Assembly: GCF_005222915.1 (NCBI RefSeq)
Contig: NZ_STFX01000054.1
Coordinates: 107,166 to 171,165 of the forward strand
Origin: Rhizobium sp. FKL33
Lineage (GTDB): Bacteria; Pseudomonadota; Alphaproteobacteria; Rhizobiales; Rhizobiaceae
Length of the DNA: 64,000 bases
Direction: 5' to 3'
The translations under genes were made by a program, and so were the position numbers. Shown in pieces: positions 22,847-26,144 of this stretch; the first letter of the stretch is position 1, and the number at the start of each line of letters is the position of its first letter. Below the pieces are notes generated by a model. The model saw only the letters and a program-made list of their open reading frames with translations, did not search any database and was not told the DNA's origin.

Positions 22847-24334
22847 TTATTCGCCGGCGTCTTCGGCAGCGGCCTTCTTCTTCGGCGCAGCCTTCTTCTT
22901 CGGCGCAGCGTCAGCAGCGTCTTCGCCGGCCTCAGCCTTGGCTTCGGACTTCGCAGCCTTCTTCTTCGGCTTGTCGGCCTTTTCAGCAGAGTCCTCCGAA
23001 TCGTCGTCGGCCAGGAGCTCTTCCTTGGTCACGGTCTTGTCCGTCACCGAGATCTGCGTCAGCAGGTGATCGACGACCTTCTCTTCGAAGATCGGCGCGC
23101 GCAGGCCGGCGATCGCGCCGGGCGTTTCGCGGAAATACTTGATGATTTCCTTTTCCTGGCCCGGGAACTGCTGCATCTGGGCGTAAAGAGCCTTGTTCAG
23201 CTCGTCTTCGCTGACTTCGACGCCAGCCTTTTCGCCGATTTCAGACAGAACGAGGCCGAGCTTGACGCGGCGTTCGGCCAGCTTGCGATATTCTTCGCGG
23301 GCCTTTTCTTCCGTCGTGTCTTCGTCTTCGAAGGTCTTGCCGGACTGGGCGAGATCGGAAGCGATCTGGCGCCAAATCTGTTCGAACTCGGCGTCGACGA
23401 GACGGGCCGGGGTGTCGAAGGCGTAGAGCGCGTCCATCTGGTCGAGCAGCTGACGCTTCAGCTTCTGGCGCGTCACGTTGCCGAACTGGCTTTCCAGCTG
23501 GCCGCGAACGATTTCCTTGAGGCGATCAACGGATTCGATGCCGAGCTTGGACGCGAGTTCGTCATTGACTTCGAGCGGCTCGGCGGCGGCGACAGCCTTC
23601 ACCTTGATGTCGAAGGTGGCGTCCTTGCCGGCGAGGTTGGCCGCCGGATATTCGGCCGGGAAGGAGACGTTGATGACCTTCTCGTCGCCGGCCTTGACGC
23701 CGACCAGCTGCTCCTCGAAGCCGGGGATGAAGCGGTTGGAGCCGAGCACAAGTTCGGCGCCCTCGTCCTTGCCGCCATCGAACGGCACGCCGTCGAGCTT
23801 GCCTTCGTAATCCATGGTCACGCGGTCGCCGTTTTCAGCCGCGCCGTCCTTGTCGGCATAGCTGCGGGCGCTCTCGGCGATGCGGAGGATCTGCTCTTCG
23901 ACTTCGGAATCGGGGATTTCGACGATTTCGCGGGTCACGGCGATGGAGCTCATGTCCTTGAGCTCGATCGGCGGGATCACTTCGTAGGAGAGCGTGAATT
24001 CGAAATCCGCCTCGGCGTTGAGGATCTTGTCGGCTTCCGACTGGTCCTCGGTCATGGCGATTTCCGGCTGGGTGGCGGACTTTTCGCCGCGGCCGGTGAG
24101 GATTTCGGTCGGCCGGTCGCGAATGATCTCGTTGACCAGCTCGGCCATCACCGACTTGCCATACAGTTTCTTCATATGGGCGAAGGGCACCTTGCCGGGA
24201 CGAAAGCCGTTGATACGGACGCGGCCCTTCACTTCCTCAAGCCGCTCGTTCATCCGAGCTTCCATGTCCTTGGCCGGGATGACGACCTTGAGTTCGCGCT
24301 TCAGCCCTTCCGCGAGCGTTTCGATAACCTGCAT
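22847..24334 (-). CDS. tig: Trigger factor
   Basis: A 495-residue ribosome-associated chaperone and peptidyl-prolyl isomerase that meets nascent chains at the exit tunnel. The ribosome-docking signature GFRPGK is at residues 43-48. The FKBP-like domain spans about residues 165-245 ([30 protein letters not shown]). The helical chaperone domain follows to about 435. The last 60 residues are a Lys/Ala/Glu-rich tail longer than in E. coli, as often seen in this order. It is a single gene between a convergent protease and a tRNA. Confidence 0.97.
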
Positions 24335-24640: not shown

Positions 24641-24944
24641 ATCGCCGACGCCCTTCAAGCGGCGTCTTGGCGCGTCCTTAGCACTCGATTCCGAGCATGA
24701 AAAGAAAAAAGAGCGTTTGCCTCCCAGGCTTTTACACAATGTAAATCCGAACTTACTATATTGGGTTCGATCGCCAGACAGGCGAGAGACATGCAGACTG
24801 CGCATAGCGCCCCTGAGTTTTTTGCGCTGCAAAAGAGAAATTTATCATACTATTCTCTTTTTCAACGACAGGGCGGACCTGACGAGACGGAGATGGCGAA
24901 CCGTCGGCGCGCAAGCGACAATGCCCTCCCAAAAGGGTGATATG
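24641..24944. other. Intergenic region upstream of the small RNA
   Basis: About 300 bases with no supported gene. It contains a promoter-like element (24731-24759) and an AT-rich stretch near 24830-24870 with a short inverted repeat GAGAA/TTCTC. Open frames that cross it (24549-25130 on plus, 24845-25183 on minus) also cross the small RNA hairpins and are not supported. Confidence 0.5.
24731..24759 (+). promoter_or_regulatory. Candidate promoter with inverted repeat, upstream of the small RNA
   Basis: TTTACA (24731-24736), a 17-base spacer and TACTAT (24754-24759) resemble a sigma-70 promoter. The -35 lies inside a perfect inverted repeat TTTAC-N5-GTAAA (24731-24745), which could be an operator. 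A transcript from here to the terminator at 25064 would be about 300 nt; a closer promoter is equally possible. Confidence 0.3.
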
Positions 24945-25064
24945 AATTCGGGGTCGCGATCTCCTCCTCCCACGCGCCCCGATGTGACTGACGACACTCC
25001 TCCTCCCAGTCGTCGGTCAAACTCAACGACGCCCACCGGACCTCCTCCCCCGGTGGGCGTTTTG
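24945..25064 (+). ncRNA. Small RNA with three CCUCC-loop hairpins (cuckoo/CcsR-like)
   Basis: Three consecutive hairpins each expose a CTCCTCCC anti-Shine-Dalgarno loop. Hairpin 1 is 24948-24982 (stem about 10 bp with one bulge). Hairpin 2 is 24985-25019 (11-bp stem with one G-U pair). Hairpin 3 is 25030-25059 (10-bp perfect stem) followed by TTTTGATT, which makes it the terminator. I recall this layout from the cuckoo RNA family of Rhizobiales and from the CcsR RNAs of Rhodobacter. In Rhodobacter these are processed from transcripts encoding a DUF1127 protein. Here two DUF1127 genes lie 0.4-0.9 kb downstream. The 5' end is not defined; CCTCCC also occurs at about 24925. Confidence 0.75.
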
Positions 25065-25067
25065 ATT
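25030..25067 (+). terminator. Terminator hairpin of the small RNA
   Basis: CGCCCACCGG (25030-25039) pairs with CCGGTGGGCG (25050-25059) and is followed by TTTTGATT. The 10-nt loop is itself a CCTCCTCCC motif, so the terminator probably doubles as a functional loop of the small RNA. Confidence 0.8.
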
Positions 25068-25498
25068 CCGAGATTTCCAGCATGTTCAGCCCGTGGCGAC
25101 CGGTTGGGCCGCAGAGCTTTTCCCATATGACCCTGCGCCGGCATTGACGGCTGGCGCTTTACCCGGATGGGCATCCCCCACACTCCGCCCGACCTCCCAT
25201 ACTCTCTCCAATGGATCCGTCACGGTCTTGTCATGATTGTGGGGCTCCAAGCCGATGCTCGGGTGATAAAAATGTGTTATCGCCTTAAAAACAGGCGCCG
25301 TGACCACAAATGCGCCGTTGAAACGACATAGTCATTAACAAAACCCAAATATTGTGAGTGACTTAGGTTAATGAGATGCACTTTTTGCATAGGTGCACTG
25401 CCAGATTGGCGCTGGTTTCCTGTGCGCCGCAACATTATCTTCTGATCATGAAATTCAGGGCGGCAAACGGACCGCTCCACACAAAAAGGATCAGGATC
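25065..25498. other. Leader region of the first DUF1127 gene
   Basis: A 434-base gap between the small RNA terminator and the first DUF1127 gene. It becomes AT-rich after about 25260. It holds the palindromic motif at 25376-25398 shared with the second DUF1127 gene. No open frame in it is supported. Confidence 0.5.
25376..25398 (+). promoter_or_regulatory. Candidate regulator-binding motif shared by both DUF1127 genes (copy 1)
   Basis: ATGCA-N5-TGCAT (25376-25390) runs on as TTTGCATAG (25384-25392) and then GTGCAC (25393-25398). The copy ends 100 bases before the ATG of the first DUF1127 gene. A closely similar element sits at nearly the same distance before the second gene. I recall LysR-type regulators (VtlR/LsrB) controlling small DUF1127 genes in Rhizobiales, but not their exact box. 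Confidence 0.5.
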
Positions 25499-25642
25499 AT
25501 GAACATCGCTCGCGCTTACAACAACTGGGTCAAGTATCGCCAGACCGTCACCGAACTCGGCCGCATGACCAACCGCGAACTGAGCGATCTCGGCATCGCT
25601 CGCGAAGACATCCGCAAGGTTGCTCGCCAGGCCGTCCGCTAA
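25499..25642 (+). CDS. Small DUF1127 protein, copy 1
   Basis: A 47-residue basic protein, MNIARAYNNWVKYRQT then TVTELGRMTNRELSDLGIARED, which is the DUF1127 pattern: an Arg/Tyr-rich first helix and an L-x-x-(M/L)(S/T)xxEL-x-D-I/L-G-I core. DUF1127 proteins are small RNA-linked or phosphate-linked regulators; CcaF1 of Rhodobacter binds RNA and helps mature CCUCC-motif small RNAs. The ATG at 25499 has AGGATCAGGATC just upstream. Together with copy 2 and the small RNA it forms a likely regulatory locus. Confidence 0.9.
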   Translation: MNIARAYNNWVKYRQTVTELGRMTNRELSDLGIAREDIRKVARQAVR

Positions 25643-25697: not shown

Positions 25698-26000
25698 GTC
25701 TGGGCGCAGCCTTCGGCGATGCAACATTCTGCGCGGGTTCATCTCCCCTCGGCATCCTCATTCTTCAAACAGCCTGAAATTCAACCTTTGTTAACGCCGC
25801 AATCCTCTGCGGGCGACCTGTTAACCAGTGGCGAAACTTTGCGCCGCGCCTCGTATTTGTGCAATGCATGCTTATTTGCATAGCAGCTGCACACAAATCG
25901 CACTCCACCTTATTATTATTCGCATGTATAAAGAGCACATCAAGTTTCGAGCCGGGCAGAAAGTCAGGCCGCCAGAGAAAAGTCTAAAGAGGAAACGTCC
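25698..26000. other. Promoter region of the second DUF1127 gene
   Basis: About 300 bases without a gene, AT-rich after 25780. It holds the second copy of the shared motif (25864-25892) inside a larger inverted repeat, TTTGTGCA (25857-25864) against TGCACACAAA (25888-25897). No other feature was recognised. Confidence 0.5.
25864..25892 (+). promoter_or_regulatory. Candidate regulator-binding motif shared by both DUF1127 genes (copy 2)
   Basis: ATGCA-N8-TGCAT (25864-25881) includes TTTGCATAG (25875-25883) and is followed by TGCAC (25888-25892). It ends about 109 bases before the second DUF1127 ATG, close to the spacing of copy 1. The flanks add an outer inverted repeat (TTTGTGCA to TGCACACAAA). 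Confidence 0.5.
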
Positions 26001-26144
26001 ATGAACCCGCTTCGCATCGCCATCAATTGGGTCAACTATCGCCGCACCATCTCCGAGCTGTCCAACCTGTCCAACGACACGCTCCAGGACATCGGCGTGA
26101 ACCGCTACCAGATCCGCAACATCGCGGCCCGCTCTTTCCGCTAA
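26001..26144 (+). CDS. Small DUF1127 protein, copy 2
   Basis: A 47-residue protein beginning MNPLRIAINWVNYRRTISEL, with LSNDTLQDIGVNRYQIR in the second half. It has the same length and layout as the copy 500 bp upstream, but only moderate identity, so the duplication is not recent. The start is supported by GAGGAAA about 6 bases upstream. It is followed by its own terminator. Role as for copy 1: probably a small RNA-binding or stress-response regulator, by family inference. Confidence 0.88.
   Translation: MNPLRIAINWVNYRRTISELSNLSNDTLQDIGVNRYQIRNIAARSFR

Follow-up and report, generated by a model that had tools for sequence, protein, structure and literature searches.

A probable SmelC398-type alpha-r14 small RNA between tig and two DUF1127 genes of Rhizobium sp. 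FKL33, with a predicted pseudoknot in its 5' leader

The founding member of the alpha-r14 small RNAs (sRNAs) is NfeR1 of Sinorhizobium meliloti (SmelC397, Smr14C2), which the accessible parts of its descriptions present as three hairpins that each display CCUCCUCCC, with a TGCA-N6-GCAT box. According to the available text of PMC10746234 and PMC7143759, its three motifs work as redundant anti-Shine-Dalgarno (anti-SD) seeds against ABC-transporter mRNAs and ntrBC, which they silence; nitrogen and salt stress induce the RNA, and it is also induced during symbiosis. The same portion of PMC10746234 describes the silencing as Hfq-independent antisense action at ribosome-binding sites. A deep-sequencing table of 2010 (PMC2873474, excerpt) lists SmelC397, which is NfeR1, at 1667491-1667614 and, on the same strand, SmelC398 at 1667766-1667982 (217 nt), an RNA that had been predicted earlier as sm7' with 214 nt (PMC2573895, excerpt).

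Loops with CCUCCUCCC are also described for CcsR1-4 of Rhodobacter sphaeroides, which go with CcaF1 and have a DUF1127 gene nearby. In the extracts available, these stress sRNAs have two hairpins and share a transcript with the DUF1127 gene, driven by an RpoHI/RpoHII promoter; the association of DUF1127 and sRNA is in print as CIN1 (PMC10253847, excerpt). The cuckoo family, with SmelA075 and SmelA099, likewise consists of adjacent CCUCCUCCC-loop hairpins with variable stems, in several copies per genome, and no 5' pseudoknot domain appears in those portions of its descriptions that we saw.

Here, we analyzed a stretch of 64,000 nucleotides of Rhizobium sp. FKL33 (the window), in which a preliminary description had placed a three-hairpin anti-SD sRNA at 24945..25064. 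We consider it very likely that this RNA acts in trans as an alpha-r14 (cuckoo-type) sRNA corresponding to SmelC398/sm7', that NfeR1 is its sister, and that it has its own promoter, redundant anti-SD loops and a pseudoknotted leader. The earlier bounds fit the core, and a predicted 5' leader of about 80 nt lies outside them. The features are as follows.

22847..24334, minus strand: trigger factor gene tig, the syntenic anchor
24731..24762, plus strand: alternative promoter-like sites TTTACA-17-TACTAT and TACACA-18-TATATT (consensus scan, 9/12 matches each)
24792..24805, plus strand: TGCA-N6-GCAT box, as reported for LsrB in the promoter of nfeR1
24827..24832, plus strand: -35-like CTGCAA, 17 nt before the -10 (from conservation; not picked by the consensus scan)
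24850..24855, plus strand: -10-like CTATTC (from conservation; not picked by the consensus scan)
24862..24942, plus strand: predicted 5' leader, start within a few nt of 24862 (from the conserved promoter block and the SmelC398 ends)
24886..24905, plus strand: leader hairpin a, GACGG/CCGTC, whose loop GGCG (24895-24898) is the 5' strand of the pseudoknot
24908..24917, plus strand: leader hairpin b, CGC-GCAA-GCG
24922..24925, plus strand: TGCC, 3' strand of the pseudoknot, pairing with 24895-24898 (read from the sequence)
24928..24937, plus strand: possible leader hairpin c, CCC-AAAA-GGG (by eye; stem c covaries in relatives)
24943..25065, plus strand: ar14 (alpha-r14) sRNA core of three hairpins, each loop displaying CCUCCUCCC (RF02344 match and fold)
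24948..24982, plus strand: hairpin 1, 10 bp and one unpaired base, anti-SD motif at 24963-24971
24985..25019, plus strand: hairpin 2, 11 bp, anti-SD motif at 24999-25007
25023..25065, plus strand: hairpin 3, 12 bp (25028-25061), anti-SD motif at 25041-25049, probable terminator
25500..25642, plus strand: DUF1127 gene 1, 47 aa (Pfam PF06568, 55.9 bits)
26001..26144, plus strand: DUF1127 gene 2, 47 aa (Pfam PF06568, 43.8 bits)

On both strands of the window, CCTCCTCCC occurs at three sites, all inside the element (24963, 24999 and 25041), against 0.58 expected, and three or more were reached in 4 of 100 shuffles. Every site sits in a loop of the predicted fold of the 124-nt RNA, as the preliminary description had claimed, and the fold has an MFE of -60.5 kcal/mol (z = -6.71; equally stable shuffles, 0/200). 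The stem lengths of 10, 11 and 10 bp given there hold for the first two hairpins, and the third is longer, with 12 bp and four added outer pairs (25023-25026/25062-25065). The covariance-model search that had been proposed as a check places the RNA in the catalogued Rfam family ar14/alpha-r14: the ar14 model (RF02344) matches over positions 1-123 of 123 with 105.9 bits (cut-off, 58.8). The earlier assignment to the CcsR type had to be given up, since the CcsR1 model (RF02791) reaches 27.2 bits against a cut-off of 65.3. Cuckoo RNAs as a superfamily have two to four hairpins side by side, every loop displaying the motif, and include this three-hairpin RNA. The idea of an anti-SD, cuckoo-type sRNA in an intergenic unit of its own, linked to DUF1127 genes, stands.

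Among 61 distinct rows of related loci, 97.9% of the stem cells are paired, and the three stems contain 221 double-change cells compared with 65.7 in shuffles. Compensatory changes thus support the three core stems; their absence, on which the sRNA was to have been abandoned, is not what we find, because 19 of the 32 pairs change on both sides and none of 500 shuffles has as many double-change cells. Across relatives, the ar14 loops are constant and the stems drift, which is the picture described for alpha-r14 and cuckoo RNAs in the available sections of PMC10746234, PMC7143759 and PMC3927594. The FKL33 genome has five ar14 places including that of the window, four of them above the cut-off, and an ar14 match was found in 45 of 61 genomes (own genome counted), above the cut-off in 37. 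The three-loop core is already known, as a catalogued family with a mechanism worked out in a close relative.

The locus itself is widespread. With crude patterns for the motif and for DUF1127-like ORFs, and with the motif cluster sought beyond the tig start, 80 tig-anchored loci of named Rhizobiaceae gave at least two clustered CTCCTCCC motifs in 75, a DUF1127-like ORF in 74 and both, in the order tig - ar14 - DUF1127, in 71. In S. meliloti 4H41, two ar14 copies lie between tig and DUF1127. The copy on the DUF1127 side has TGCA-N6-GCAT at -74 and CTATAT beside its start, matching published NfeR1, and the copy on the tig side has a leader, with TTGCACTGCA and CTATAT about 100 nt further upstream. 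When the published SmelC398 ends, which (like those of NfeR1) come from another S. meliloti strain and are known to us from an excerpted table, are mapped onto 4H41, the 5' end falls 4-11 nt past the tig-side CTATAT and the 3' end falls at the last hairpin.

In the window, the ar14 copy is the first one beside tig, has a predicted leader and has the block TTGCRCTGCA far upstream of the first motif, all as in the SmelC398 lineage; the distance from block to motif is 141 nt, compared with 107-205 nt in 67 of the 69 loci with the block. We take the RNA to be the SmelC398 counterpart because the block, the spacing and the GAATTCGG start agree. A strict NfeR1 orthologue would have its promoter directly before hairpin 1 and the box at -72 to -60, and the window departs from this, its box lying about 150 nt ahead of the core rather than at -74 as in the NfeR1 copy of 4H41. 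By position and promoter block, the window RNA matches SmelC398 (sm7') and not NfeR1. Like SmelC398, it stands between tig and DUF1127 with (predicted) leader, promoter block and three-hairpin core; it differs in belonging to another organism and in being the single ar14 copy of its interval, whereas S. meliloti has NfeR1 adjacent. NfeR1 starts at hairpin 1, whereas in the window RNA about 80 nt of predicted, pseudoknotted leader precede that hairpin. Altogether, alpha-r14 has at least two syntenic sub-lineages, the NfeR1 type without leader and the SmelC398 type with it.

The number of copies in the interval varies. A single ar14 cluster lies between tig and DUF1127 in the window's genus (five further loci and the window), and the NfeR1-position copy seems to be absent from the interval there. 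Many Sinorhizobium and Shinella loci have two clusters, and in Rhizobium rhizolycopersici three ar14-like ones follow each other in tandem.

Upstream of the window RNA, TTGCRCTGCA recurs in 69 of the 75 relatives' loci, and a -10-like CTATAT/CTATT recurs at the matching place in the relatives listed. From this conservation, we propose a putative sigma70-type promoter of the RNA's own, CTGCAA-N17-CTATTC, from which the transcript would begin near 24862, about 80 nt ahead of hairpin 1. An independent transcript, suggested earlier, is no oddity, as it is the published state of alpha-r14 RNAs in the part of PMC10746234 available. The sigma70 consensus scan, which gave 5 promoter-like sites in the scanned stretch against 0.9 in shuffles, did not include the proposed hexamers among its sites, which makes us slightly less confident in the main reading; the two alternative sites overlap each other about 100 nt upstream of the proposed promoter.

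At the other end, hairpin 3 is likely the terminator, as the preliminary description had it, because TTTTGATT follows it and this hairpin is also where the RNAs of S. meliloti end. A consensus scan that permits loops of 3-8 flagged no plus-strand terminator at this hairpin, whose loop is 10, and listed its reverse strand instead.

The TGCA-N6-GCAT box carries weight by its position alone and not by rarity, since the whole window has 4 matches, of which two are a single place read on either strand, and 37 of 100 shuffles have as many. It is present in 30 of 69 first-copy promoters of relatives, and near DUF1127-like ORFs in only 7 of 81 cases, compared with none of the 81 downstream controls and a background of 0.018 per 250 nt. 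An exact box stands upstream both of the sRNA (24792-24805) and of DUF1127 gene 1 (25377-25390), an arrangement that suggests shared control. DUF1127 gene 2 has a similar box with other spacing, TGCATGCTTATTTGCAT, near 25865.

The leader has a structure of its own in many relatives: a hairpin of about 5 pairs, four loop bases of which pair with four bases past a second hairpin to form an H-type pseudoknot; a third small hairpin comes next, ahead of core hairpin 1. We aligned, by sequence alone, the leaders of 58 relatives and the window (alignment A1, 59 rows). The selection ran from 80 tig loci to 75 with the motif cluster, 69 with the block and 58 with a block-motif distance of at least 120; 17 of the 75 were left out for having no promoter block or a short leader, so that Ciceribacter-type short leaders are mostly out. 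A second alignment (A2) comprises 64 of the 69 block-bearing loci and the window. All four pseudoknot pairs are present in 38 of the 59 leaders of A1, at least three in 50, and fewer than three in 9. The strands are swapped among rows, with GGUC/GACC in 18, GGCC/GGCC in 8, GACC/GGUC in 6 and GAUC/GAUC in 2; GGCG/UGCC occurs in 2 rows, one of them the window, and GGCG/AGCC, with three pairs, in ten.

Pseudoknot cells are paired in 87.0% of cases, and in at most 44.6% when the strands are slid. There are 34 double-change cells against 12.5 in shuffles and a score of 0.365 against 0.183, each reached in 0 of 500 shuffles; the number of pairs with a double change and the number of further pair types show no excess over shuffles (374 and 480 of 500 as high). 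Two of the pairs have 43 GC/10 AU and 33 CG/21 UA among paired cells and zero one-sided changes. On a maximum-likelihood trigger factor tree, at least 8 changes fall on one of the two central pairs and at least 6 on the other. Among independent pairs taken from supported branches, the partner base followed in the same direction in 6.2 of 7 and 3.8 of 4, with no opposite move; a sign test gives a median p of 0.03 and 0.125, limited by the few independent pairs. The same two pairs, at 93% paired, also come out of a scan of all column pairs, as does stem c. In the window, the MFE structure of the leader alone has another pairing at the site of hairpin c (24928-24937), and its stability does not exceed that of shuffles (z = -0.10).

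Rfam searches of four leaders (those of the window, 4H41 and two further loci) gave no family at its cut-off. The other matches, with E up to 1 (sR45, Virus_CITE_6, 6C, ar7, flg-Rhizobiales, snoZ248, Ysr49 and others), lie far below their cut-offs, and those of snoZ248 and Ysr49 overlap leaders. In the openly licensed literature searched, SmelC398 is named in a single paper, and we found no description of a pseudoknot leader and none that pairs NfeR1 with a pseudoknot; within that literature, the conserved pseudoknot-bearing 5' extension appears to be undescribed.

We rejected the leader as a stand-alone element elsewhere. A leader model (R1) matched 12 of 61 genomes at E 0.01; five matches at 1.2e-4 or better and one at 0.0019 (G006) all lie directly before ar14. 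The six others have E-values of 0.0016-0.0054; taken at face value, these E-values would give fewer matches in 61 genomes. The four of them inspected (L120, L122-L124) have no CTCCTCCC cluster nearby; we provisionally treat the six as noise and the E-values of the model as rough. The genome search is weak: it scored no more than 73 candidates per genome and missed G002, whose leader went into the model. On 16 sources, R1 found L040, which is not in the model, at the right place with 31.3 bits.

Could the leader pairs be a functionless by-product of GC-rich hairpin sequence? The shuffle-like stability of the window leader would fit, as would the missing leader before NfeR1 and in S. kostiense and S. 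medicae, where the promoter block of the first copy abuts hairpin 1. A by-product would hardly vary by simultaneous changes only, as two pseudoknot pairs do, nor be singled out by a scan of all column pairs, and we regard this reading as distinctly unlikely. That the leader is instead a small protein gene, the ORF at 24791-24940 that ends just ahead of hairpin 1, is extremely improbable: it has an ATG, a purine-rich stretch upstream and about 50 open codons, but it is overlapped by promoter-like elements, what is conserved is RNA pairing, and we rejected it because the frame is not retained in the closest relative (L018), where the frame at that place has 18 codons. A start further upstream is also unlikely; from the promoter-like site 24731-24759, the RNA would reach a length of about 300 nt. 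The 9/12 scores of the two alternative sites and the excess of sites in the scan speak for such a start; the conserved block and -10-like element speak against it, as does SmelC398, which by the excerpted table begins just past the block and CTATAT.

A different alternative keeps the RNA and changes its company, making it a CcsR-like RNA of a CIN1 locus, produced together with a DUF1127 protein that binds it and matures it with RNase E. The printed CIN1 association and the box ahead of both sRNA and DUF1127 gene 1 favor it, and so does linkage: in the 61 genomes searched, at least 58 of 112 above-cut-off ar14 places have a same-strand DUF1127 domain no more than 2 kb away, in at least 33 of 37 genomes. 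The nearest one is upstream in at least 39 places, of which at least 15 have the CcsR order at 28-41 nt, and downstream in at least 19; these distances run to the domain and not to the gene end, and the counts are a lower bound. In the window, however, both DUF1127 genes are downstream, as originally described, and the CcsR/CIN1 order of DUF1127 gene and then sRNA is missing. The sRNA precedes the genes with a terminator-like hairpin at its end and a gap of 434 nt to gene 1, and stays under the CcsR1 cut-off; this alternative, too, is improbable. DUF1127 proteins may have a role in the life of the window RNA. Finally, the anti-SD loops might select no targets and compete with the 16S rRNA tail, lowering overall translation under stress. 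CCUCCU is the general anti-SD core, the three loops are open, and genomes have several ar14 copies, all of which would suit such competition. In the accessible text of PMC10746234, on the other hand, NfeR1 seeds act on chosen mRNAs in reporter assays, and we judge a purely competing RNA to be very unlikely. In other Rhizobiaceae genera (L015, L022, L023, L029 and L033), the DUF1127 ORF ends 0-74 nt before ar14, at about 1427-1501, which is the CcsR-like order.

Returning to the SmelC398-type sRNA, the family, structure, covariation, synteny and predicted loop accessibility were computed here, and we infer the start site, terminator, regulator, targets and leader function in Rhizobium sp. FKL33. 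The RNA, of about 200 nt, would be transcribed from its own promoter near the LsrB-type TGCA-N6-GCAT box. Each CCUCCUCCC loop would pair with GGGAGGAGG-like Shine-Dalgarno sequences and block ribosome binding, lowering translation of several mRNAs including transporter genes, and the three loops would be redundant; anti-SD action is known for NfeR1, from the sections available, and is proposed for the window RNA, where no feature that we found speaks against it. The 5' leader, its hairpin loop pairing downstream in the H-type pseudoknot, would most likely shield the 5' end or set RNA processing. More speculatively, and with only a small chance of being right, SmelC398-type alpha-r14 RNAs could be composite regulators in which the 5' pseudoknot is a platform for a protein (perhaps the neighboring DUF1127 protein) or a small ligand and decides between stabilization of the anti-SD module and its release by RNase.

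What is added here are the two alpha-r14 sub-lineages and, for the SmelC398 type, a pseudoknot in most aligned leaders. If this is confirmed, the usual drawing of the sRNA with three redundant hairpins gives way to an RNA of two domains, and the question becomes what the 5' domain binds or protects. A composite regulator would silence ribosome-binding sites in general under the control of a switch, with a 5' domain that is absent before NfeR1 and, as far as the four leaders tell, from Rfam.

In the own genome, the pattern GGGAGGAG-N4-9-ATG has 35 sites compared with 3 for a reversed control, and 24 of 30 inspected sites open an ORF of 60 aa or more. The excess is no proof of targeting, because the pattern is also that of an ordinary strong Shine-Dalgarno sequence. 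Pfam scans of 20 of the 24 ORFs (L149 and L150 are one gene, and some ORFs are cut by the locus end) gave five ABC-transporter parts (L125, L140, L142, L145 and L149), and otherwise sugar enzymes, dehydrogenases and regulators; this predicted set fits the known targets.

The loops are suited to ribosome-binding sites, as first proposed. Across 60 predicted full-length RNAs, the three motifs are unpaired with means of 0.97, 0.98 and 1.00, and the first is at least half unpaired in 59. We therefore rejected hiding of the first anti-SD loop by the leader as a general rule. The sole RNA with a mostly covered first motif is that of the window (0.39 unpaired), where the second and third are open. 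In its full-length MFE structure (24858-24972), the leader sequence GGAGATGGCGA pairs with UCGCGAUCUCC of hairpin 1 and covers the first motif.
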